Of a stretch of DNA of 43,191 nucleotides, positions 7,298 through 34,077 are shown in pieces. Both the position numbers and the translations under genes were made by a program. Under the pieces are notes generated by a model. It was not told the DNA's origin, ran no database searches, and saw nothing but the letters and a program-made list of their open reading frames with translations. This DNA comes from Prevotella sp. (GTDB lineage Bacteria; Bacteroidota; Bacteroidia; Bacteroidales; Bacteroidaceae): contig JAFWQE010000054.1 of NCBI GenBank assembly GCA_017509155.1, positions 1-43,191 of the forward strand. The letters run 5' to 3'. The first letter of the stretch is position 1; every line of letters starts with the position of its first letter.

Positions 7298-7382
7298 AAC
7301 GTACCTTCTGGCAGCTTCCACTGCGAGTGTTGCCATGTGCGGTTTCGTTATCTGGCTGAAGTCTTAGTTGCATTGTACTGTT

Positions 7383-7508
7383 TTGGAGTTTGGGAGTTTA
7401 GGAGTTCGGGAGTAGAGACGATAGTATTTCCGCTCATTTTTCAGGATTCTTGGAATCGGAACTATCGTCTAAACTCCCACACTCCCACACTCCTAAACTT
7501 CTAAATTA
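7383..7508. repeat. Inverted word-array element
   Basis: The left side carries repeated GGAGTTTGGGAGTTTAGGAG-type words. The right side carries their complements (AAACTCCCACACTCCCACAC). Between them GACGATAGT (about 7417) faces ACTATCGTC (about 7467). The TATCGTC word next to a TAACTCC-type array recurs at about 14784 and 17868, so the three loci belong to one family. This copy lacks the GCAAGCAAAGCG core seen in the other two. Confidence 0.65.
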
Positions 7509-13714: not shown

Positions 13715-13765
13715 CAGCCTTTTTCTTTTTCCGCCGCCCTAACCCCAGAGGAACGTCGGAGCAAA

Positions 13766-13926
13766 CGTATCGTGGCAGGTCTTCTGACTTCGTCGCACAA
13801 AGGCAAGCGTCTTCCCAATAATATCAGTGACACTTGTGCTTGCCTCGTATGAAAGGCGACTCACAGCTGCGGGACAGTTGGGGACTTTCACCCCATTCCC
13901 TTTTTAATCGGTCATCGAACCACGAT
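13766..13926 (-). promoter_or_regulatory. Cobalamin (AdoCbl-type) riboswitch
   Basis: Reading the minus strand, the conserved core appears in order: GGGAATGGGGTGAAAGTCCC, then AACTGTCCCGCAGCTGTGA, a variable arm, and finally AGAAGACCTGCC. The closing P1 helix pairs CCACGAT (plus 13920-13926) with ATCGTGG (plus 13769-13775). The RNA senses coenzyme B12 and in this class usually represses the gene behind it. Here it precedes btuB by about 50 nt, so repression when B12 is plentiful is expected. Confidence 0.96.
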
Positions 13927-13940
13927 AACTCTATCGGGTG

Positions 13941-14601: not shown

Positions 14602-14667
14602 CGGTCATGGAAAACAACTAAAACAACAGGAAACATCAGAGAGTCATGGAACTCAACTTTGAAAGTT

Positions 14668-14836
14668 GATTTAGGAGTGTAGGAGTCTGGGTGCTTAGGA
14701 GTTCTCTGCAAGCAAAGCGACCAAAGGTCGAGCGTGGACATCAGTTCTGATTCTAGAAACCCCTGCAAAAGAGCGAAAACGTCTATCGTCATAACTTCCA
14801 AACTCCTAAACTCCTAAACTCCCAAACTCCCAAGAA
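14668..14836. repeat. Inverted word-array element with conserved core (core 14701-14734)
   Basis: The left arm holds TAGGAGTGTAGGAGTCTGGG-type words, and the right arm holds complements (AAACTCCTAAACTCCTAAAC). The inner core GCAAGCAAAGCGACC...GGTCGAGCG occurs again at about 17786-17820 and, reversed, at 24690-24722. A TATCGTC word precedes the right array, as at 7470 and 17868. Confidence 0.7.
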
Positions 14837-14860
14837 TATAGAACAACCGAAACATCAATT

Positions 14861-15370
14861 ATGGAATACATGTCACAGGAAGGCTACGACAAGCTGGTGG
14901 CAGAGCTGCGCCACATGGAGAGCGTGGAACTACCGCTGGTGAGGGAGGCCATTGCCGAGGCGCGCGACAAAGGCGACCTCAGCGAAAACTTTGAGTATCA
15001 TGCTGCCAAGCGCGAGCAGGCACGGCTGCTGGGACGCATTCGTTTCAAGCAGAGGGTGCTGGCAAATGCCAGGGTCATCGACATGTCACGGCTGAACAGC
15101 GACTGCGTGCAGCTGCTCAGCAAGGTGCAGATGACCAATCTCGCCACCAACAAGACCATGACGTTTACCATAGCCAGTCCGCATGAGGCCAACATACGCG
15201 AGGGAAAAATCTCCATCAAGTCGCCCATCGCCCAGGCGTTGCTCAGCAAGAAGGTTGGCGACGAGGTCTCGGTGAGGGTGCCTGCAGGACTGATGAAACT
15301 GCGCATCGACCACATCAGCCTCGATGGGGAGGCGACCGACGGCTCTTCTGATTCCGTGGCCAATGAATGA
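14861..15370 (+). CDS. greA: Transcript cleavage factor GreA
   Basis: The 169-residue protein begins with the classic GreA coiled-coil hairpin (YMSQEGYDKLVAELRHME, then EARDKGDLSENFEYHAAKRE). The acidic DLSEN tip reaches into the RNA polymerase secondary channel to trigger cleavage of backtracked RNA. The C-terminal FKBP-like domain follows (about 85-155: GKISIKSPIAQALLSKKVGDEV). It is about ten residues longer than typical because of a Ser/Asp-rich tail. Its last 8 bp overlap the start of the next gene. No clear promoter is visible directly upstream; the repeat element fills that gap. Confidence 0.96.
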   Translation: MEYMSQEGYDKLVAELRHMESVELPLVREAIAEARDKGDLSENFEYHAAKREQARLLGRIRFKQRVLANARVIDMSRLNSDCVQLLSKVQMTNLATNKTMTFTIASPHEANIREGKISIKSPIAQALLSKKVGDEVSVRVPAGLMKLRIDHISLDGEATDGSSDSVANE

Positions 15371-16781
15371 ACTGATCGGACAGCTGAGCGACGTTCTCTG
15401 GACCTATGTCTTAATGGGTGTCTTGGTGGCTTGTGGGCTTTGGTTCACGTGGAAGACGCGTGGCGTGCAGTTCCGCATGCTGGGCGAGATGGTTCGCCTG
15501 CTGTCTGATTCGGCTGTCGCTCAGTCTTCGTCAACAACCAACAGTCCTTCTTCTTCCAAGACTCACATCTCCTCGTTCCAGGCCTTTGCCGTTTCCGTGG
15601 CCACACGTGTTGGAACGGGCAACCTGGCAGGCGTGGCCACGGCCATTGCCATAGGAGGACCGGGTGCCGTGTTCTGGATGTGGGTCATCGCATTGCTGGG
15701 CGCTGCCACCGCCTTTGTGGAGTCAACGCTCGGACAGCTTTTCAAGAAACATCACCACGGTTCGTTCATCGGCGGCCCAGCCTACTACATCGAGCGTGGA
15801 CTCCATTGCCGATGGATGGCCTGCTTGTTTGCCGTGCTCATGACCATCACCTTCGGTCTTTCCTACAACTCCATACAGAGCAACACCATCTGCGGTGCCA
15901 TGCACGAGGCCTTCGGATGGGACGAGACCTTGGTGGGTGTTGTCTTGTCAGCAATGGCGCTCGTCATCGTCTTCGGCGGCATCCATCGCATCGCCCGTGT
16001 CAGTTCCGTTCTCGTGCCCGTCATGGCCATCGGCTATTTCATCCTTGCCCTGGTGGTTGTGGTGATGAATATCCATCTTGTTCCCCACGTGCTGAAACTG
16101 ATTGTGGGGGGAGCCTTTGGACTGGAGCAGGGCGCTGGCGGCGCATTGGGAGCCGCCATCATGAACGGAGTGAAGCGCGGACTGTTCAGCAACGAGGCCG
16201 GAGAGGGCAGTGCGCCCAATGTGGCGGCCACGGCCTTGGTGTCGCATCCCGTCAAGCAGGGACTCATACAGTCGCTCGGCGTCTTCACCGATACGCTTCT
16301 CGTGTGCTCATGCACGGCTTTCGTCATCCTCATCAGCGGGCTCTACAACGTGCCCGAACTGAATGGCATCGCCCTCACTCAGGCTGCCCTGAGTTCAGAG
16401 ATAGGGCACTTTGCCCAAGTGTTCATCGCGGTGGCCATCTTCCTGTTTGCCTTCTCGTCCATCATCGGAAACTACTATTATGGTGAGGCCAACATCCGTT
16501 TCATGACGTCCCGCGGTTCCGTCATCACCATCTACCGTATCATGTCGGGCGGCGTGATGGTCATGTTCGGCGCCATGGCCAGTCTTCAGCTGGTGTGGAA
16601 CCTCGGCGACCTGTGCATGGCATTGCTCACGACGTGCAACCTCGTGGCCATTGTCACCCTTGGCAAATACGCCTTCCGCCTGCTCAACGACTACCGTCAG
16701 CAGAAGCGTCGAGGCATCAAGGACCCCGTCTTCCACCGCAGTCAGCTGCCAGAGATCGCTGACGACCTGGAGTGCTGGTGA
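15363..16781 (+). CDS. Sodium:alanine/glycine symporter (AGCS family)
   Basis: The protein has 472 residues. The start at 15363 overlaps the greA stop by 8 bp; the longer frame from 15324 would read through greA. It is an integral inner-membrane protein with about ten or more hydrophobic segments. AGCS signatures are clear: ATRVGTGNLAGVATAIAIGG, GGPAYYIERGL, and GVKRGLFSNEAGEGSAPNVA. The family imports alanine or glycine with sodium. A Ser/Thr-rich stretch at about residues 45-68 is an odd insertion in the first cytoplasmic loop. Overlap with greA implies co-transcription, but no functional link is known. Confidence 0.93.
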   Translation: MNELIGQLSDVLWTYVLMGVLVACGLWFTWKTRGVQFRMLGEMVRLLSDSAVAQSSSTTNSPSSSKTHISSFQAFAVSVATRVGTGNLAGVATAIAIGGPGAVFWMWVIALLGAATAFVESTLGQLFKKHHHGSFIGGPAYYIERGLHCRWMACLFAVLMTITFGLSYNSIQSNTICGAMHEAFGWDETLVGVVLSAMALVIVFGGIHRIARVSSVLVPVMAIGYFILALVVVVMNIHLVPHVLKLIVGGAFGLEQGAGGALGAAIMNGVKRGLFSNEAGEGSAPNVAATALVSHPVKQGLIQSLGVFTDTLLVCSCTAFVILISGLYNVPELNGIALTQAALSSEIGHFAQVFIAVAIFLFAFSSIIGNYYYGEANIRFMTSRGSVITIYRIMSGGVMVMFGAMASLQLVWNLGDLCMALLTTCNLVAIVTLGKYAFRLLNDYRQQKRRGIKDPVFHRSQLPEIADDLECW

Positions 16782-16822
16782 GTAAAGAACCGCTCTATGC
16801 CATAAAAAAGGCAACAACACAT

Positions 16823-17011
16823 CAGATGGCATCGTATAAGCCCGACGTTTGTACTCGTAAACCGTCTACCTGTTTTCAGGCGCAGCCGCTCCCCTCCCAT
16901 TTCAGGGGAGGGGTAGGGGTGGGGTAAGCGTAGACCTTGTGCACGAAAGTTTTTCACCCCACCCCTGCACCCCTCCCCTGAGATGGGAGGGGAGTAGCTG
17001 CGCACAGATGG
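16823..17011. repeat. Palindromic interspersed element, copy B
   Basis: Full-length, reverse-oriented relative of 1-151. Two G-rich/C-rich arms (CTCCCCTCCCATTTCAGGGG and CCCCTGAGATGGGAGGGGAG) flank a central loop. The flanking CCGTCTACCTGTTTTC and CAGATGGCATCG blocks are shared too. Length is about 185 bp, with no coding potential. Confidence 0.8.
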
Positions 17012-17104
17012 AAAGACACATACGGAACTGAATACTAATCTTCATTCCTCTCTAGACGTTGCGGAGGTGCCCACTGCTATCTTGTCACCTAAAAAAGCGT
17101 ATTC

Positions 17105-17190
17105 TTTGGAAAAGCCGTTGTCGTCAGACCAAAGAAATCCGCATTATCCGTGTCATCCGTGTTCGTTGTTTCTTTGAACACAGATTGCAG
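17105..17190 (-). repeat. Dispersed copy of the 115-bp unit
   Basis: Reads in reverse as the unit of 885-1203: GTCGTCAGACCAAAGAAATC, then CCGCATTATCCGTGTCATCC and a GAACACAGATTGCAGATT segment. A single copy, lying just past the 3' end of the tmRNA gene. Confidence 0.75.
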
Positions 17191-17230
17191 ATTGATCGGA
17201 TTATAAGTGGTATCCTCTCACCTCTAAAGC

Positions 17231-17276
17231 CGAAAAACAACTCGCCCTTCTCATCCCCGGCAGTGGGAGAGAAGGG
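17231..17276 (-). terminator. Probable terminator of the tmRNA gene
   Basis: On the minus strand CCCTTCTC (17276-17269) pairs with GAGAAGGG (17252-17245), and a T-rich stretch follows at about 17238-17233. It starts 11 bp after the tmRNA 3' end. Confidence 0.55.
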
Positions 17277-17286
17277 TGAAAAGAAG

Positions 17287-17681
17287 TGGACCTGGTGGGA
17301 TTCGAACCCACGTCCGCACAAGGAAACCATGCGCTTTCTACATGCTTATTCCGGTCTTCATTTTCGTGATGCTGCAAGACCCGGACCACCAACAGCACCC
17401 TTATCCCCTAAAACTTCATCGCGACATCGGGGCTTGCCTCGACTATTTCCGATTTTACTGCGCCGCTTGTCCCTCAGATTCGGAACAACACCCTTGGAGC
17501 GACGTCTCGTTTCCTCACCTGGTGAAGAAATAAAGCTTTAATCTACTGTACTTCGATTAAGCAGCGAGAGCATACTCGTTGTTGCCAATTAATTTTTCGA
17601 CCGAGTTGTTTCAAGAGTTCACAGTCTTCACTCCACATGCTTACGCACCATCTCGTCTTGCCGTCAAATCCTGTCAAGCCC
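17287..17681 (-). ncRNA. ssrA: tmRNA (transfer-messenger RNA)
   Basis: About 395 nt. The 5' end GGGCTTGACAGGATTTGACG pairs through GGGCTTG with CAGGTCC at the 3' end to give the tRNA-like acceptor stem; CCA is not encoded. The 3' T-arm reads GTGGGTTCGAATCCCAC. The tag frame at 17598-17557 encodes EKLIGNNEYALAA followed by TAA (the exact resume codon is uncertain, possibly one or two codons earlier). The YALAA end is the degradation signal seen in Bacteroidales tags. The RNA rescues stalled ribosomes with SmpB. Its own promoter lies directly upstream. Confidence 0.97.
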
Positions 17682-17694
17682 ATTGATGCGGCCG

Positions 17695-17726
17695 CAAAGG
17701 TAACGTTTTTTTTTGGAATATACAAC
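17695..17726 (-). promoter_or_regulatory. Promoter of ssrA
   Basis: Minus-strand GTTG (17726-17723) and TACCTTTG (17702-17695) are 20 nt apart. The expected start near 17688 is just ahead of the mature tmRNA 5' end, leaving only a few bases to be trimmed. Confidence 0.8.
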
Positions 17727-17769
17727 ATTCTTGCGAAGTTTTTTTTCTTTTTCAGAGAAGATTAAGTGT

Positions 17770-17903
17770 ATAGGAGTTACAGGAGTACTTTGCAAGCAAA
17801 GCGAACAAGTTCGAGCGCTCTGCAAGCAAAGAACTTCTGTATTTAAAAGGTGCCGCTCTAAACGTATCGTCTGTAACTCCTGTAACTCCTGTAACTCCTG
17901 ATC
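17770..17903. repeat. Inverted word-array element with conserved core
   Basis: Left words AGGAGTTACAGGAGT and right words GTAACTCCTGTAACTCCTG form the inverted arms. The core TTTGCAAGCAAAGCGAAC lies at about 17789-17806, and a second partial core, CTGCAAGCAAAGAAC, at about 17820-17834. TATCGTC again precedes the right array. Confidence 0.7.
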
Positions 17904-18010
17904 AATGGTGTCAACGCAACAACTAACGCCTTTTTGCAATTGCCTGTTCGTGTTCACGAGAGAGAATCCGGCAGTTTTTTCGCGATTACAGACATATTTT
18001 TCCTCCTTTT

Positions 18011-18042
18011 CTTGCTCATAACAACCGAAAAGAGTACCTTTG
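18011..18042 (+). promoter_or_regulatory. Promoter of the CotH-domain gene
   Basis: CTTG (18011-18014) and TACCTTTG (18035-18042), 20 nt apart. The leader to the start at 18250 is about 200 nt. Confidence 0.75.
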
Positions 18043-18249
18043 CCACGCTATCATCAGCAATCACGCAATCAACAGGTGTCTCCAGACGAGGAGAGCACAT
18101 TCTAAGAAAAAGACGATTAAAGGTATAAGAATGCAAAAGAAAAAACCTGTTTCCGCTGCTTTCCATGCTCATGTATACGAATACGTGGGCGGCTGATGTC
18201 GTTGTCGATGCTGGAAAAAATGAAGAATCAGAATAAAGAACCTAAGAAA

Positions 18250-21200
18250 ATGGAAATGAAGAAAACCATTCTCGCCACGGCACTGTGGGTGCTTGTGGCA
18301 ATTTGTTCGTTTGGTGAGACAGCCACTTTCAACGCGAAAGGCGGCAGCTGGCCTCAAGGCAACTGTGCGAGTCTCACCATCAGCAACCGCACGTTTGCGC
18401 ATGGCAAGTGGACAACCCTGGCACTTCCCTTTGCCGTCAGCAAGGCCCAGCTCGACCAGGCTTTCGGCACCGACGCCTACGAAGTGCAGCAGCTGACCGA
18501 GGTGAGTGGCAACACGTTCGTGTTCAACCGACTCGAGTCGCCCGCCATGGAGGCAGGCAAGCCCTACCTTTTTAAGTACAATGGCTCAGCCGACCTGTCG
18601 TCGGTGACCTTTCAGAATGTCAGTGCGACCGTCACCACAGGACAGGTCCTTGGCACCGACACCCACAAGTTCAAGGCCCAGCTGGTCTATCTCTACGACT
18701 GGTCCTACCTGAACAGCGGTGGCCACTACTACACCATGCGCGACGGTGCCTGGTGGGAACTGGGCTGGGGACAGGGCGATGCGGCCAACATCCTTGGCAC
18801 CGAAGCCCTCTTTGAAGTGCCGTCGGGCACCACCGCCCTCATCAGCATCGAGGGCGGTCAGGGTGGAAACGGCGACCCTTCCGACGACCCCGACGACCCG
18901 TCAGACCCCACCGACCTCGCATCGAAGATAGCGGCCCACGCCCAGATTTCCGATGTCCCCACCATCTATCTCTCCATCCCCGACGTCACCTCCGTGAGCA
19001 GCTGGGGCAAGGAGCAGGATGCCGACGGTAACGACATCTACCGCCGCGCCACCATTCAGGTGGTCGACCAGTATGGCCATCTGGAGGAGTTCACCGACCC
19101 CGGACTGAGCATCAAGGTGCGTGGCAACTCCACCGCGAGCGTCGGAAACGGCAAGCGTCCCTATCGCCTGAAGTTCGACAAGGACGTGAAGCAGGGTGGG
19201 GTGGTCACCGAGACCCATAAGCACGACCTGCTCGGACAGGGCTACAAGAAGCGCAACTGGACGCTGCTGGCCAACGCCTTCGACAACTCCATGATGCGCA
19301 ACGCCCTGACCTATCACATCGGAAAATACGTGGGCATGCCCTTCTGTCCCGGCTACAGGTTCGTCGACCTCGTCATCAACGGCGAGTACCGCGGCACCTA
19401 TCAGGTGTCTGACCATGTGGAGGTAGGCACCAACCGCGTGGACATCAATGAGGACACCGACTGGTTCCTCGAGGGCGTTTCATGGACCAGCATGACCGAA
19501 GAGCCCTACGCCGGAACGGGCGAGCCCTACTTCAACATCAAGAACCCGGAGCCCGCCACCACGGCAGAGCTGGACCAGCTGAAGAGCGACATCAACAGCT
19601 GGCGCGAGCAGTGGCTCGCCTCGTTCGACAACGGTTCATGGCAGAAGACCAACGATCTCGCCTCGCTCGTCAGGTACTACATCGCCATCAATCTCACAGG
19701 CGACCTCGACGGATGGTTCGTCTTCAAGGGCTACCGGACGCCAGACGGACCCTTCACATGGGGCCCGCTATGGGACAAGGACCTGGCATTTGGCAACCAC
19801 GGCGACGCCAAGGACGACAAGATGGTCGAGAACTATGGCAAGTGCAATTTTGAGTGGAAGATCAGGGCCTTGCAGCAGAACCGCACGTTCATGATGGCCG
19901 TGAAGGCGAAGATGGACGAGCTGGTGGCCGACGGCCTGACCGACAAGCTGATGGCCGACATTGACAACCTCGCCGACATGCTCAGTCAGACGCAGGCCTA
20001 CAACTTCAGCATCTACAACATCAACGACGCCAGCTGGGCCAAGGTGCATTTCCCCACCTTCCCCGAGTATGCCGCACAGCTGAAGGAGTGGCTCACCGCC
20101 CGCATCAGCTTCGTGCAGAGCTCCATCGACTCCTTCGTGGAGAACCTGCCCGCGCCCACCGAGGGAACCTACAATCCCGCCAACGCCTGGTGGGGCACAG
20201 GACTCATGAACGGCACCACCTACAACATGAGCATCGCCAACCCGCACCGCCTGACCGCCGGCCAGTGGAACACCTTCTGCCTGCCCTTCGACGCCACGCA
20301 GCAGCAGATGGAGCAGGCCCTGGGCTGCACCTACGAGCTGAAGGTGCATACTGGAATGGATGCCGACGGACACACCATGCTGTTTGGCGACCCTGCCACG
20401 CTCGACATCGAGGCCGGCATGCCCTACCTCATCAGGCCCGCCAGCCATGTGGACAGCTACGGCGTGTTTGAGGACGTGGTCTACTCCGTCAACGTCAGCA
20501 ACGGCCAGAACGCCTACAACGGCGACGGCGTGACCTTCGACAACCAGCACTATTTCTGCGCCTCGCTGTTCCACGGCTACGAGCTCTCCACCGCCACCGA
20601 CTATCTTTTCGACAACGACCTCTACACCGAAGGCACCGCCGCCTTCACCCGGACGCCGTCGGACAACCCCCACGACGGCATGCGCGCCTACCTCCGCGTG
20701 CCGGCCGGAGAGACACCTGCCATCGCCTTTGCCGCCGCACCCGATGTGAGACGGCAGAAGACCCCCGGTGTGACCACCATCTATATCGACACCCAGGACG
20801 GCGCCCCCATCGACCACGACAACTATGTGGCCGCCACCATGCAGGTCATGGAGACCTCCCTCGACGATGCCACGCCGCTGGGAGAGTTCACCGAGAGCAA
20901 CCTGACCATCAAGGGCTACGGCACCGACACCTGGAACCTCGCGAAGAAACCCTACCGCATCAAGTTCGGCAAGGGCAGCGGTCACGACATGACCGGTCGT
21001 GGCTACAACAAGCGCAACTGGGTGCTGCTGGCCAATGCCGCCGACGAGTCCCTGCTGCGCAATGCCGTGGCCAAGCGCCTCGGCGACGCCCTGCAGATGC
21101 CCTTCACGCCCGGATATAAGTTCGTCGACCTGGTGCTCAACGGCACCTACGTGGGCACCTATCAGCTGACGGAGCATGTGGAGGCCGACCTCACGCGTGT

Positions 21201-22107
21201 GAACGTGAACGAAGACACCGGCTGGCTGTGGCAGATGACCAACCAGGCCGTGGCCGGTGAGCTGCAGGTGGAAGGCAGCGCGACCGTTCCATACGTGACC
21301 ATCAAGAATCCCGAGGGCGAAGACGACGAGGAGAATGCCGATATCCAAAATGCCGCCGCCGACTACCTGTGGCGTTTCTGGACGGCTATCCAGACGGAGG
21401 ACGGCTTCTCCCAGTATGTTGAGCCCTCGTCCTTTATCAACTGGTATCTGGCCAGTGAGCTGCTGGGCAGCTACACCGCCTTCTCCACGTTCTACGCCTA
21501 CAAAGAGGCATCGGCCACGCAGCTCTGCTTCGGACCGCTATGGGACAACGACCACGCCCTCGGCAACTCCTCCCAGCTCGACATGGCAGCGCTGATGAGC
21601 GACAAGGCCACCGTGGGCTCGCGCCGCGCCATGATCTACCTCTGCGGAGAGCCGTCGCCATGGACCGCCATGCTCGCGAAGCTGTGGGACTGCGACTGGT
21701 TTGCCCAGGCCGTAGCCGGGCGATGGGCCGACATCTACGCCCAGCGAGAGACCGTGGTGGGACTGGCCGATGCGTTCGACAGCAGCTGGTTCCGCGACAC
21801 CTGGGCCAACAACTACAGGCCGCAGGCAGAAGGCGGTGCCGGATGGGAAGCCAGCGTGCAGGCCTCGGCCTTCTCGTCGCAGATCGTGGCGCCGATGAAG
21901 ACCTGGCTGTCTGACCGCATGGACTATCTGAACGCGAAGATTGTGGAGCAGAGCATGGACGATGTGGCCACCGGCATCCATGAAGCCCGGCAGACGAGCG
22001 ACCGTCCCACAGGCTATTACAACCTGAACGGACAGTATGTCGGCGAGCGCATCGCCGCAGGCCGGCACGGCGTGTTCATCCGCAACGGCAAGAAACAGGT
22101 GCGGTAA
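18250..22107 (+). CDS. Giant secreted protein with two CotH-kinase-like domains
   Basis: The protein has 1285 residues. I chose 18250 (or 18256) because MEMKKTILATALWVLVAICS starts the signal peptide; an in-frame ATG at 18196 adds a charged leader. Order: a beta-rich module with WTTLALPF (about 10-195), an acidic linker rich in Asp and Pro (about 200-217), CotH domain 1 (about 235-600: RPYRLKFDKD, GPLWDKDLAFGN), a second LPF module (about 635-830), CotH domain 2 (about 838-1215: KPYRIKFGKG, GPLWDNDHALGN), and a sorting-like tail (YYNLNGQYVG...GVFIRNGKK). CotH proteins are atypical kinases; the WDxDxxxGN aspartates are present in both domains. In Bacteroidetes they occur on surface proteins of unknown substrate. 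It has its own promoter. Confidence 0.88.
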   Translation: MEMKKTILATALWVLVAICSFGETATFNAKGGSWPQGNCASLTISNRTFAHGKWTTLALPFAVSKAQLDQAFGTDAYEVQQLTEVSGNTFVFNRLESPAMEAGKPYLFKYNGSADLSSVTFQNVSATVTTGQVLGTDTHKFKAQLVYLYDWSYLNSGGHYYTMRDGAWWELGWGQGDAANILGTEALFEVPSGTTALISIEGGQGGNGDPSDDPDDPSDPTDLASKIAAHAQISDVPTIYLSIPDVTSVSSWGKEQDADGNDIYRRATIQVVDQYGHLEEFTDPGLSIKVRGNSTASVGNGKRPYRLKFDKDVKQGGVVTETHKHDLLGQGYKKRNWTLLANAFDNSMMRNALTYHIGKYVGMPFCPGYRFVDLVINGEYRGTYQVSDHVEVGTNRVDINEDTDWFLEGVSWTSMTEEPYAGTGEPYFNIKNPEPATTAELDQLKSDINSWREQWLASFDNGSWQKTNDLASLVRYYIAINLTGDLDGWFVFKGYRTPDGPFTWGPLWDKDLAFGNHGDAKDDKMVENYGKCNFEWKIRALQQNRTFMMAVKAKMDELVADGLTDKLMADIDNLADMLSQTQAYNFSIYNINDASWAKVHFPTFPEYAAQLKEWLTARISFVQSSIDSFVENLPAPTEGTYNPANAWWGTGLMNGTTYNMSIANPHRLTAGQWNTFCLPFDATQQQMEQALGCTYELKVHTGMDADGHTMLFGDPATLDIEAGMPYLIRPASHVDSYGVFEDVVYSVNVSNGQNAYNGDGVTFDNQHYFCASLFHGYELSTATDYLFDNDLYTEGTAAFTRTPSDNPHDGMRAYLRVPAGETPAIAFAAAPDVRRQKTPGVTTIYIDTQDGAPIDHDNYVAATMQVMETSLDDATPLGEFTESNLTIKGYGTDTWNLAKKPYRIKFGKGSGHDMTGRGYNKRNWVLLANAADESLLRNAVAKRLGDALQMPFTPGYKFVDLVLNGTYVGTYQLTEHVEADLTRVNVNEDTGWLWQMTNQAVAGELQVEGSATVPYVTIKNPEGEDDEENADIQNAAADYLWRFWTAIQTEDGFSQYVEPSSFINWYLASELLGSYTAFSTFYAYKEASATQLCFGPLWDNDHALGNSSQLDMAALMSDKATVGSRRAMIYLCGEPSPWTAMLAKLWDCDWFAQAVAGRWADIYAQRETVVGLADAFDSSWFRDTWANNYRPQAEGGAGWEASVQASAFSSQIVAPMKTWLSDRMDYLNAKIVEQSMDDVATGIHEARQTSDRPTGYYNLNGQYVGERIAAGRHGVFIRNGKKQVR

Positions 22108-22164
22108 AAGTCCGGTGCGCCTGTGCGCTCCCTGTCCGTCACTGATGCCGACGGAAACGCAGTT

Positions 22165-22228
22165 CCGCCCCTACAGCGGTTGTCTTCTGGCAAGCCAGCC
22201 CTTGCCACCAGCAGCCCTGTAGGGGCGG
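22165..22228. repeat. REP-like palindrome, possible terminator
   Basis: CCGCCCCTACAG (22165-22176) and CTGTAGGGGCGG (22217-22228) are exact 12-bp inverted copies. A smaller pairing, GGCAAGCC...GGCTTG-like, lies inside. There is no T-run after it, so a terminator role for the CotH gene is uncertain. CCTGTAGGGGCGG-type palindromes are widespread in environmental bacterial genomes. Confidence 0.55.
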
Positions 22229-22358
22229 ACGAGTGTCTTCAGCCCGCAGCGTCTCATGGTTCCAGTTGTCAGCGACGCCCGTCTTTCAGCCCGTTCTTGC
22301 CAGTTCTGACAGGCAACACCGACCATCTTACGCGTCCTTTTTGGCGAAACAGAAAAAC

Positions 22359-22446
22359 AAATCCATTGAAATCGTTGGACGAAACCAATGGAATCGTTGA
22401 ACGAAATCAATGGATTTGTTGCACAAAATCAATGGCTTTGTTTCGA
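22359..22446. repeat. Tandem array, four units of exactly 22 bp
   Basis: Units start at 22359, 22381, 22403 and 22425. Each contains a variant of CAATGG or CCATTG with AATCGTTG/ATTTGTTG and an AACGAAATC-type block, so the unit is nearly self-complementary. A related four-unit array of the same 22-bp period lies at 33990-34077 with the complementary strand dominant. Confidence 0.85.
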
Positions 22447-22563
22447 AAGACGGGCTTTTTTGTTGTTTCCTTCTGTCGTTTTCGCCGCTCTTTTCCAGCG
22501 GTCTTGCCTGAGAGTGCGGGCGTTGTCGCCCGTCGTGAATGCCGTGAGGGTGGGGTGGGGGTG

Positions 22564-23328
22564 TCAATAGGAGGCGGTGCAGGCGATGCCCTCGGCCACC
22601 ACGCGGTCGCGAATGCTGTCGAGCTCCTGGTGCGTAGCCTTCTGCAGTCCGTGCATGGGCGTCTCGCGGTCAATGGTGTAGATCATGACGCTTTGCGGAC
22701 GGATGGCCTTCACCACCTGTAGCCACGGGGCGACAAACGCCTCGCCGGTGTTGTCCAGCTCATCGCCCTTCATGAACATGGTCTGAATGATGACGTGCCC
22801 ATGGAAGCTCTTCAGGTGGGCGATGACCTCGTCGACGTCGTAGCGGCCCGTCGGACGGTCCACCTTATTGATATACTCGGGGCTGACGGTGTCGAGCTTC
22901 TGAATGTTGTTGTCCACCCGCATGAGTGCGCGTCGCACCGATTCGCGGTGGAGCATGGTGGCGTTGCTGAGCACGGACACCTTTGCCTCGGGACAGTAGA
23001 TGTTGCGCAGACGGAGGGTGTCATCGATGATTTCCTCGAACTGCGGGTGTGCGGTGGGCTCTCCGTTTCCGGCGAACGTCAGCACGTCGGGCCGCTGCTG
23101 TTCGGCGGCCATCAGCCGGAGCCGCTCCTCGAGTGCCGTGGCCACCTCGTGGCGCGTTGGCCTTGGCAGGTGGGGGCGGTGGTCGCCATTGAAGCCGCAT
23201 TCACAGTAGACGCAGTCGAACGTGCATATTTTCCCATCGGCAGGCATCAGGTTGATGCCCAGCGAGAGGCCGAGGCGGCGGCTGTGCACCGGGCCGAAGA
23301 TGGGGCTGGGATAGATGATTGTTGCCAT
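22564..23328 (-). CDS. Radical SAM protein (COG0731-like)
   Basis: The protein has 254 residues. The opening FGPVHSRRLGLSLGINLMP followed by C35-x3-C39-x2-C42 (CTFDCVYC) is the radical SAM iron-sulfur motif, in the form typical of the COG0731 group. Further landmarks are FAGNGEPTAHPQF and a VSVLSNATMLHR strand. It should cleave S-adenosylmethionine with a 4Fe-4S cluster, but the substrate is unknown. I chose the start at 23328 because the upstream in-frame ATG (23391) lies before the promoter. The -7 element ends at 23337, so the mRNA would be almost leaderless. No operon partners are present. Confidence 0.88.
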   Translation of the reverse strand: MATIIYPSPIFGPVHSRRLGLSLGINLMPADGKICTFDCVYCECGFNGDHRPHLPRPTRHEVATALEERLRLMAAEQQRPDVLTFAGNGEPTAHPQFEEIIDDTLRLRNIYCPEAKVSVLSNATMLHRESVRRALMRVDNNIQKLDTVSPEYINKVDRPTGRYDVDEVIAHLKSFHGHVIIQTMFMKGDELDNTGEAFVAPWLQVVKAIRPQSVMIYTIDRETPMHGLQKATHQELDSIRDRVVAEGIACTASY

Positions 23329-23336
23329 AGTGGGGG

Positions 23337-23344
23337 CAAAGGTA
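23337..23344 (-). promoter_or_regulatory. -7 element of the radical SAM gene
   Basis: Minus-strand TACCTTTG sits only 8 bp before the start codon at 23328. Transcription from the usual distance would begin at or within a few bases of the ATG. A good -33 element is not visible in the G-rich stretch upstream. Confidence 0.55.
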
Positions 23345-23406
23345 AGAAAATTATTGCAGATGGAGGAGGGGAAAGAGGAAAAAATAAACACACGAACCTC
23401 AGACCA

Positions 23407-23632
23407 AGCCCCAGCCTCACCCCCGACCCCTCTCCGAGGGGAGAGGGGAGTGGTTAGTATTGAAGGTTGTAGATTTTGGATTTTTGGTCGGTTGGGGGCT
23501 TCTCAGTTCTCAGTTCTCAGTTTTCAGTTTGAGCCCTTGGGCTCACAAACATCCCCCTCGGGGGCTTGGGGGGCTCCTGGGGCTTGGGGGGCTTCCTTGC
23601 CTCTTACCTCTCACCTCTCACCTCTAGCACCT
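23407..23632. repeat. Composite repeat, left of ftsX
   Basis: In order: CCTCACCCCCGACCCCTCTC with a palindrome and GAGGGGAGTGGTTAGT, TTGAAGGTTGTAGA, a GGGGGCTTCTCAG block, TTCTCAG words repeated four times (about 23500-23527), a GAGCCCTTGGGCTC palindrome, CATCCCCCTCGGGGGCTTGG, and TCACCTC words repeated (about 23600-23627). The outer blocks match 24604-24840 in reverse order and orientation. Confidence 0.8.
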
Positions 23633-23656
23633 TAGGTGGTTAATAAATGTAAAATA

Positions 23657-23688
23657 TTTCCTCTGTTCGGATAAAATGCGTAAATTTG
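23657..23688 (+). promoter_or_regulatory. Promoter of the ftsX operon
   Basis: TTTC at 23657-23660 and TAAATTTG at 23681-23688, spaced by 20 nt. The start codon at 23722 follows with a leader of about 25-30 nt. Confidence 0.7.
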
Positions 23689-23721
23689 CCGCAAATTTGG
23701 CGTAGTGCGCCCTTTTTGATT

Positions 23722-24603
23722 ATGGCAAAAAAGCGTAAGAAGACCCGCAGCCGTCGTGGACTGCAGGTTGTGACATTGTGCATCAGCACCGCTATGGTGT
23801 TGGTATTGCTGGGTCTTGTGGTGTTCAGCGTGCTCACCGCCCGCAACCTCTCGGCCTACGTGAAGGAGAACCTGCGGGTGACGGTGATGCTCTCTGAGGA
23901 CGTGACCAATCCCGAGGCCGAGCAGATGTGCCGTGAGCTGAGACAGCGTCCGTATGTGACGGACCTCACCTACATCAGCAAGGAAGAGGCCCTGAAGGAA
24001 CTCACCGCCGAGCTGGGGGCAGACCCCACGGAGTTTACCGACGGCGTGAACCCCACGCTGGCCAGTGTGGAGATGCAGATGAAAGCCGACTATGCCAACG
24101 GGGACTCGCTGCAGTGGATTGAGAAAGAGCTGAAGAAGAACGCGAAGGTGCAGGAGATCAGCTATCCGAAGGACCTGATGGAACAGGTGAACCGCACGCT
24201 GGCCAAGATCAACTTCGTGTTGCTGGTGCTGGCCGTTTTGCTGCTCATCATCTCGTTCTCGCTCATCAACAACAGCGTGAAGCTCGGTGTCTATGCCCGG
24301 CGGTTCACCATCCACACCATGAAACTGGTGGGCGCCTCGTGGGGATTCATCCGCTGGCCTTTCATGCGGCGCAGCATCGGCATCGGACTGCTGGCAGCAC
24401 TGCTGGCCATCTTGGTGCTGGGCGGCTGCGTGTATGCCCTCTATCGCTACGACCCCGAGGTGCTGACGGTCATCACATGGCAGGACATGAGCATCACGGC
24501 TGTCGTCGTGGTGGTGGCTGGTGTGCTCATCACGTCGCTGTGCGCCTATTTCTCGGTCAACAAGTTCCTGAGGATGAAGGCCGGCGAACTGTATAAAATT
24601 TGA
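23722..24603 (+). CDS. ftsX: Cell-division ABC-transporter permease FtsX
   Basis: The protein has 293 residues. I chose the ATG at 23722 (MAKKRKKTRSRRG), after the promoter; a start at 23686 would overlap the -7 element. It has a basic cytoplasmic N-terminus, a first membrane helix (about 20-45), and a periplasmic domain (about 50-165) with LRVTVMLSEDV and YISKEEALKELTAELG. Three more membrane helices follow, including VKLGVYARRFTIHTMKLVGA, the FtsX coupling region. FtsX works with the ATPase FtsE to control cell-wall hydrolases at division. FtsE is not adjacent. It is the first gene of a likely housekeeping operon, although the right-hand repeat separates it from the next gene. Confidence 0.95.
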   Translation: MAKKRKKTRSRRGLQVVTLCISTAMVLVLLGLVVFSVLTARNLSAYVKENLRVTVMLSEDVTNPEAEQMCRELRQRPYVTDLTYISKEEALKELTAELGADPTEFTDGVNPTLASVEMQMKADYANGDSLQWIEKELKKNAKVQEISYPKDLMEQVNRTLAKINFVLLVLAVLLLIISFSLINNSVKLGVYARRFTIHTMKLVGASWGFIRWPFMRRSIGIGLLAALLAILVLGGCVYALYRYDPEVLTVITWQDMSITAVVVVVAGVLITSLCAYFSVNKFLRMKAGELYKI

Positions 24604-24840
24604 AGCCCCCAAGCCCCCGAGGGGGATGTTTAAGTGATAAGTGATAAGTGAGAAGGCCCCCAAGCCCCCGAGGGGATGTCCTAACTGAGCGCTCGACCTT
24701 GGTCGCTTTGCTTGCAAAGAACTGAGAGGTGAGAAGCCCCTAAACGACAAAAAAACAAGGTCTACAACCTTCAAGACTAACCACTCCCCTCTCCCCTCGG
24801 AGAGGGGTTGGGGGTGAGGCTGGTGCAGGGCTGGTGCTGG
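24604..24840. repeat. Composite repeat, right of ftsX (inverted relative to the left copy)
   Basis: It begins one base after the ftsX stop with AAGCCCCCAAGCCCCCGAGG. GTGATAA words follow (about 24634-24652), a second AAGCCCCCGAGGGG, the reversed core GCTCGACCTTGGTCGC (24690-24722), GAGAAGCCCC, TCTACAACCTTCAAGACTAA, CCACTCCCCTCTCCCCTCGG and GGGTGAGGC words. Read backwards this is the block order of 23407-23580. Confidence 0.82.
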
Positions 24841-27907: not shown

Positions 27908-28133
27908 TAGCCTCACCCCCGACCCCTCTCCGAGGGGAGAGGGGAGTAGTTACTCATTGAGACCGCTTGATAAAGTCCCGAAAGGGACGAAAAGACCATA
28001 GGGAGGGGTGGAAGCCCTTCTTGACAATCAAGGAGCTACAGAAGAGCCCCGAAAGGGCGACAGGATAGTCGTTTGGTCGTTTAGTCGTTTAGTCGTTTAG
28101 GTGTTTGGTCATTTAATCGTTGGAGGGTATTAC
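27908..28133. repeat. Composite gap: CCTCACCCCC block, GAAA-loop hairpins, GTCGTTTA array
   Basis: 27912-27948 repeats the CCTCACCCCCGACCCCTCTC block of the ftsX flanks. Two hairpins with GAAA loops follow: GTCCC-GAAA-GGGAC (27975-27988) and GCCC-CGAAA-GGGC (28046-28058). Then come TAGTCGTT words repeated about six times (28072-28122). The folK start lies directly after. Confidence 0.75.
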
Positions 28134-33983: not shown

Positions 33984-33989
33984 CGAAAC

Positions 33990-34077
33990 GATTCCATTGA
34001 TTTCGTTGAACGATTCCATTGATTTCGTTCAACAAATCCATTGATATTGCTGAACGATTCCAATGGATTTGTTCTTT
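33990..34077. repeat. Tandem array, four units of exactly 22 bp
   Basis: Units start at 33990, 34012, 34034 and 34056. The first two differ at a single base and read GATTCCATTGATTTCGTT plus GAAC or CAAC. The array is the complementary-strand counterpart of 22359-22446. It directly follows the inverted TCTGCCAG pair. Confidence 0.87.

Follow-up and report, generated by a model that had tools for sequence, protein, structure and literature searches.

How does one short palindromic sequence come to lie at three places in a single stretch of bacterial DNA, amid differing tandem words? The stretch is the 43,191-nt contig JAFWQE010000054.1 of Prevotella sp. (GenBank assembly GCA_017509155.1, positions 1 to 43,191, hereafter the window), and the sequence, hereafter the core, is probably a mobile element, non-autonomous and very small (29–31 nt in most copies). 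Many dispersed copies, paired hairpins, a TT target, a fixed orientation, and base-exact insertion in relatives were observed, and are set out below (L and G numbers are handles for loci and genomes).

Structure of the core

The core consists of two abutting hairpins of together ~29–31 nt, CTTTGC-AA-GCAAAG followed by CGACC and GGTCG around a loop of AA or AAA, with GAGCG as the usual 3′ end. A preliminary description of this DNA had placed a core with two small palindromes at three loci; the loci were right, the ends had been set a few bases too far out (Table 1), and the palindromes are two hairpins, both covarying. Searching the window with a 29-mer (up to 3 mismatches) returned two of the three copies against an expected mean of 0.00 (100 dinucleotide shuffles), the 31-nt copy being missed through one extra loop base, and searching with the 16-mer TYTGCAAGCARAGCGA (up to 2 mismatches) returned all three against an expected mean of 0.15, with no shuffle reaching three. 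All three copies are intergenic (UPF0047/greA; tmRNA/CotH-type gene; ftsX/next gene). As had been described, GGAG words flank the first two copies, and CTCAGTT words adjoin the third, with GTGATAA words nearby. Beyond that description, the GGAG arrays to the left of the first two copies are matched by inverted CTCC arrays to the right.

Covariation is present in both hairpins. Across 90 copies from the source genome of the window, the third base of hairpin 1 forms a T-A pair 40 times and a C-G pair 44 times, with 6 mixed cases (Fisher p = 3e-18; covariation p values are not strict, as the copies have common descent). For hairpin 2, 40/41 source-genome copies of the 30-nt form have A-T or C-G as the middle pair, and the 20 other-species copies of that form all have A-T, C-G or G-C there. 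Core length was 29–31 nt in 67/90 source-genome copies and 87/154 copies of other genomes; a 44-nt variant, in which hairpin 2 is extended (CCAAGGCCTGATGCCCTTGG; e.g. L049, L076, L089), made up 14 of the 90. By a crude expression, the right end was unrecognisable in 10/243 distinct cores, and those inspected looked degraded or compound, or truncated at the end of a contig. Freedom from stop codons in all six frames, seen in the three 30-nt forms tested, was dropped as an argument, because 2,153/20,000 core shuffles and 3,436/20,000 random window 30-mers were stop-free too.

Copy number and distribution

The source genome is a 3.44-Mb draft, 82% complete and 6% contaminated. A loosened core pattern (up to 2 mismatches) occurred at 132 places in it, against 4 for the reversed control; among the matches listed (100 source-genome places), 73 were exact and 27 had one mismatch. 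The 18-mer of the preliminary description gave 25 exact copies genome-wide, and its control none. The source-genome copy set used below comprised 97 distinct cores (up to 1 mismatch) from retrieved loci.

Across the genus, a core 15-mer was present in 67/200 genomes, source genome included, the reversed control giving one match in each of two genomes, and exact copies ranged from 0 to 103, the source genome being highest with 103 places. An exact pattern that includes AGTT matched at least 87 stretches of GTDB assemblies, plus Prevotella sp. P6B1, labelled as Prevotella, Prevotellaceae, Bacteroidaceae, Alloprevotella and one Bacteroides, many of them ruminant-derived. A species-specific core, suggested by 2/151 genomes of the family (the source genome and G017), was overturned, that sample having held only nine other genus members. 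Literature queries with the core in four spellings gave no match, and topic searches gave no description, in a corpus with most subscription journals outside its scope.

Two side observations concern these matches. A genome that seems to be the Bacteroides-labelled assembly has a contig with two cores (L242, G017:C138; compare L210), possibly misbinned Prevotella DNA, and three IMG/VR viral contigs (L239, L240, L241) each have a core, in two of them at one common position within sequence that both share.

Insertions within genes

Uninserted homologues define the boundaries of the core in relatives. One core lies within a UPF0047 gene (L174), the protein of which aligns with the UPF0047 protein of the window with a single ten-residue gap at 75% identity. 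Another lies in an Hsp20-family gene (L359), whose relatives L362 and L363 are without exactly those 30 nt, the flanks of L362 being nearly identical. An FlK-like gene (L360) has two cores, the first being exactly 30 nt extra relative to L371 and L372; at the second, the lengths again differ by 30 nt, the flanks have diverged, so that the junction is inexact, and the core is itself diverged. L370 was left out of the comparison, as it gave no sensible alignment. All four insertions, in three genes, preserve the reading frame, and target duplication is absent at the three base-exact 30-nt sites.

In the source genome, cores together with CTCAGTT words lie in frame within genes for a cobT-like phosphoribosyltransferase (L015), a P-type ATPase (L022) and an AMP-binding enzyme (L005), and the Pfam match of the first two is split into two stretches. 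Intragenic cores occur both ways round, sense in L174, L359 and L360 and antisense in L005, L015 and L022. Cores falling in open frames of 150 aa or longer (24/97 from the source genome, 17/103 of the named set) give no usable rate, since long open frames are also found intergenically here.

Target site and flanking words

Directly before the first C of the core, AGTT was found in 79/95 source-genome copies (2 of the 97 had no upstream sequence and were left out). For comparison, copies were chosen by hairpin 1 alone from 20 other genomes, giving 73 distinct copies, 70 with TT and 36 with AGTT before the core; after setting aside 20 that overlapped loci selected by AGTT, the remaining copies had TT before 50/53 and AGTT before 19/53. 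The orientation of the core is fixed relative to the TT target. The words preceding the core vary by species (in the AGTT-selected set, GACGAGTT, AAGAGTT, TTTAGTT, GTAGTT and GAAGTT). Since TT or AGTT precedes most cores, the exchangeable flanks are inferred to be mostly target DNA, made of tandem GTT-ending words that are species-specific and are also found core-free.

The GGAG pattern was found in 13/40 genomes (source genome included), all of one genus, with 514 overlapping places in the source genome (control 2) and 111 in G159 (control 6). Where such arrays form the two arms of an inverted element, as at the first two window loci, the word type was common to both arms in 54/61 classified element rows (34+20 vs 7; Fisher p = 2e-9), a comparison in which 4/65 rows were uncallable, there is overlap among rows of L049, L064, L076, L077 and L249, a single locus (L247) supplied 3 of the 7 mismatched rows, and copies share descent. 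Cores were present in 28/65 element rows, which is no rate, the loci having been chosen for their cores or arrays. Core-free GGAG elements occur at window positions 7380–7505 and among the other element rows, and similar word junctions occur with and without a core in the source genome (L060 vs L070/L072; L048 vs L072). Abutting core copies were seen in L012, L070 and at window positions 17788–17831.

The preliminary description had proposed a constant core with exchangeable flanks, unlike an ordinary insertion sequence (IS), and this is borne out: instead of one long element with matching flanks everywhere, GGAG and CTCAGTT contexts were found in the source genome, and other words in other species. 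Its further suggestion, that arrays had been added to a recombination or protein-binding site, is not supported: GGAG elements and the homologous sites of relatives occur without the core, so that it is the core that was added to existing DNA.

As a separate observation, relatives L092, L093 and L103 have other short hairpins (CGCGGCTTTCAGCCGC; CGAGCGTAGCGAGCG) in similar GGAG arrays, a pattern that would fit use of these sites by further small modules.

Route of movement

As a first guess, the core may move by HUH-type single-strand insertion in trans. Insertion of IS200/IS605 elements gives no target duplication. Such a route would fit the core because target duplication is absent and a target rule is visible. 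IS200/IS605 elements are described in PMC6006769, as far as its relevant passages go, as having subterminal hairpins and inserting beside a short fixed target; the core likewise inserts 3′ of a fixed short target without duplication and has paired hairpins at its ends, with weak folding energy, and differs in having no transposase gene inside and in having hairpin 1 at the left cut, with no space for a guide tetranucleotide.

Under this scheme, a single strand would fold with the two hairpins as its recognition ends, and the cuts, one at the TT target and one at the right end, would be made by a trans-acting enzyme of the HUH type known from the IS200/IS605 group. The flanking tandem GTT-ending words would be target DNA in which the core can land harmlessly at many sites, several landings at a single site could produce abutting and nested copies, and 30-nt copies could persist in genes with the frame kept and ten residues added.

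Several results weigh against mobility of this kind. Core copy 2 of the window is preceded by GGAGTA, without AGTT or TT, and TT is missing before 3/53 copies of the set from other genomes. No GAGCG was found at the right end in 9/90 source-genome and 42/154 other copies. The 30-mer, folded as DNA, has a weak predicted energy (−3.9 kcal/mol, z −0.6), and only the 31-mer among four core variants folded came near z −2; given this weak folding, energy alone proves nothing. The position of hairpin 1 at the left cut counts against the IS200/IS605 parallel as well as distinguishing it. A replication-strand bias was rejected, as GC skew had no consistent sign (p = 0.28 in 92 source-genome copies; p = 0.007, with opposite sign, in 112 others). 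In a limited look at the retrieved loci no autonomous core copy was seen, and searches centred on Y1 transposase genes tied no transposase to the core, the Y1 genes of the source genome lying beside other palindromes and 19/38 core-bearing drafts having no Y1 match. Among the draft genomes, no cognate TnpA, and within the retrieved loci no autonomous relative, was tied to the core; among the open reading frames beside L159 no transposase was recognised, though without a thorough search.

A further proposal, possible and put forward tentatively, is that the 30-nt double hairpin is mobile by itself and that the enzyme or pathway behind its movement is neither a transposase of the class associated with repetitive extragenic palindromes (REPs), known as RAYT, nor a known IS transposase, with the species-specific tandem words of intergenic Prevotella DNA (GGAGTT, CTCAGTT, AAGAGTT, GACGAGTT and others) as by-products or kept targets of the same activity.

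Alternative explanations

That the core is a classical REP moved by the RAYT of the cell is improbable. REPs are presented in parts of PMC3733652 and PMC3116915 as palindromic repeats of 20–40 bp, in high copy, and as proposed miniature transposons, and the size, palindromes and copy number of the core (palindromic, 29–31 nt in most copies, 132 source-genome places) suit this description, as does the presence of two strong Y1 genes in the source genome. Both of these genes (L026, L027), however, are flanked by other palindromes (CCCAGGGC..., GGCCTTTCAGGCC-like), with no core-like hairpin beside either (0/2; flanks up to 1.5 kb, one L026 side shortened by a contig end). The core-bearing drafts without a Y1 match include the three copy-richest of 20 counted (33, 18 and 18 exact 15-mers), drafts of unstated completeness in which the gene may be missing, so that single absences mean little, and at 30 Y1 loci of core-bearing genomes a strict core pattern, which overlooks imperfect cores, occurred once, ~1.3 kb from a Y1 fragment (L290). 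The core also differs from REPs in having no GTAG or CGTC tag, the TT or AGTT before hairpin 1 belonging to the target and the right end being mostly GAGCG, in its sharp insertion after TT, and in its in-frame coding insertions. The partnership with a REP-associated tyrosine transposase that had been suggested for this DNA was looked for in the source genome, in related genomes and in core-bearing ones, and no tie to the core was found, leaving RAYT/Y1 poorly supported as its mover. The GGAG arrays seem independent of Y1 too, being present in drafts without a Y1 match (5, 4, 41 and 8 array places in G158, G162, G169 and G173).

The two source-genome Y1 genes (at ~1402–1857 and 1402–1905 of L026 and L027) adjoin palindromes CCCAGGGCGTTGCCCTGGG and GGCCTTTCAGGCC-like, and apparently form a separate RAYT-REP system.

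Spread via an RNA intermediate, by reverse splicing or reverse transcription, is likewise doubtful. Such a route, reportedly proposed for cyanobacterial small dispersed repeats, would suit covarying hairpins, which could fold as RNA, and insertions without target duplication; the presence of intragenic copies in both orientations is unlike plain reverse splicing into messenger RNA.

Retention of the core as a functional RNA or DNA structure (a terminator or protein site), its mobility being old and irrelevant, is very unlikely: compensatory changes do keep the hairpins paired, but both orientations are found, copies lie within protein genes, folding is weak, and exact copies number from 0 to 103 among species of one genus. 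Least likely is that cores are only passengers, carried along when similar word arrays and host elements recombine or undergo gene conversion, for which many source-genome cores do lie inside repeated word arrays and the sharing of word type between arms makes exchange between arms or copies plausible, but which the array-free coding insertions (UPF0047, Hsp20, FlK-like) and the same core amid different words in other species count against.

Comparison with known small repeats

The core, as a mobile element, is provisionally filed as a new variant among very small mobile repeats, one that appears to act like cyanobacterial small repeats and REPs. The small dispersed repeats (SDRs) of Nostoc and its relatives are, reportedly (Elhai et al. 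2008), 21–27 nt long, share compensatory hairpins, and lie in tandem heptamers or minitransposons, with nested copies. By this definition, the core resembles SDRs in being very short, in its compensatory hairpins, in its setting in tandem words and in its abutting or nested copies. It is set apart, by description, in belonging to another phylum and in its two hairpins, TT/AGTT target and uninserted homologous intragenic sites. For SDR5, a passage of PMC4390886 places the insertion point within the HIP1 octamer, exactly between base 3 and base 4.

The core is not a miniature inverted-repeat transposable element, having two separate hairpins rather than terminal inverted repeats, and no duplication at the three base-exact sites. 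Rickettsia palindromic elements (RPEs) are palindromic inserts of ~100–150 bp that are tolerated in frame in protein genes. The core resembles them in lying in frame within UPF0047, Hsp20 and FlK-like genes of relatives, and differs in length (mostly 29–31 nt, some 44) and phylum; RPE repeats are among those named in PMC3733652. PINSR, according to portions of PMC4755523, is a 188-bp intergenic repeat reported from one clade, the Prevotella intermedia/nigrescens group, with 177 and 184 copies in two strains; the core is also a multi-copy Prevotella repeat without coding content, and is set apart from the 188-bp intergenic PINSR by description, not by sequence.

Other features of the window

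Coordinates of the core copies, their host elements and a core-free element are collected in Table 1. Elsewhere in the window, a 115-bp unit (AATCCGTGCAATCTGTGTTC...) is repeated 2.7 times at 898–1209 and has an inverted copy 16 kb off, at 17111–17189, beside the tmRNA gene. Arrays of 22-bp units (AACGAAACCAATGGAATCGTTG and similar) at 22356–22442 and 33987–34070 are mutually inverted and 11.5 kb apart. A REP-like palindrome, CCTCTCCGAGGGGAGAGG, occurs in both orientations (23413–23456, 24779–24822 and 27909–27952), and another at 46–94 and 16955–17003. The CotH-type protein encoded at 18196–22107 has two CotH stretches and an internal 243-bp repeat (73% identity), and a cobalamin riboswitch lies at 13757–13939 on the − strand.

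Table 1. Core copies and associated elements, by window position.
Feature	Position	Strand	Details
Inverted GGAG/CTCC element, without core	7380–7505	+	body GACGATAG...CTATCGTC
Left outer hairpin CAACTTTGAAAGTTG and left GGAG word array, copy 1 host element	14652–14703	+	GGAGTT ends at 14703
Core copy 1, 31 nt	14704–14734	+	hairpin 1 CTCTGC-AA-GCAAAG (CTCTGCAAGCAAAG), one mismatched pair; hairpin 2 CGACC-AAA-GGTCG; right end AGCG; GGAGTT before
Host element body at copy 1	14735–14790	−	GACGATA...TGATGTCCA on − strand
Right arm of copy 1 host element	14791–14833	+	inverted word array CTCCTAAACTCC, period 8
Left words of second host element	17771–17787	+	GGAGTTACAGGAG
Core copy 2, 30 nt	17788–17817	+	hairpin 2 variant CGAAC-AA-GTTCG, compensatory to CGACC/GGTCG
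Partial second core abutting copy 2	17818–17831	+	hairpin 1 only (CTCTGCAAGCAAAG)
Right arm of second host element	17871–17900	+	inverted words CTGTAACTC, period 9; word type as in left arm
7-bp word directly 3′ of core copy 3	24683–24689	−	CTCAGTT
Core copy 3, 30 nt	24690–24719	−	CTTTGCAAGCAAAGCGACCAAGGTCGAGCG on − strand
7-bp word directly 5′ of core copy 3	24720–24726	−	CTCAGTT, ending AGTT

Implications

The origin and movement of very small bacterial repeats is an old question, since uninserted sites are seldom observed and few of the enzymes responsible are known. In the present case, uninserted homologues in conserved genes, base-exact boundaries at three sites and a visible target rule are available. 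Because about one third of the sampled genus has the core, in very different copy numbers, the enzyme should be findable by comparing copy-rich with copy-free species. Annotators should also be wary, as a ten-residue stretch of a Prevotella protein, for example SLQAKRTSSS or FFASKATKVER, can be mobile DNA. If the double hairpin is indeed mobile by itself, it would be among the smallest mobile DNA elements known.

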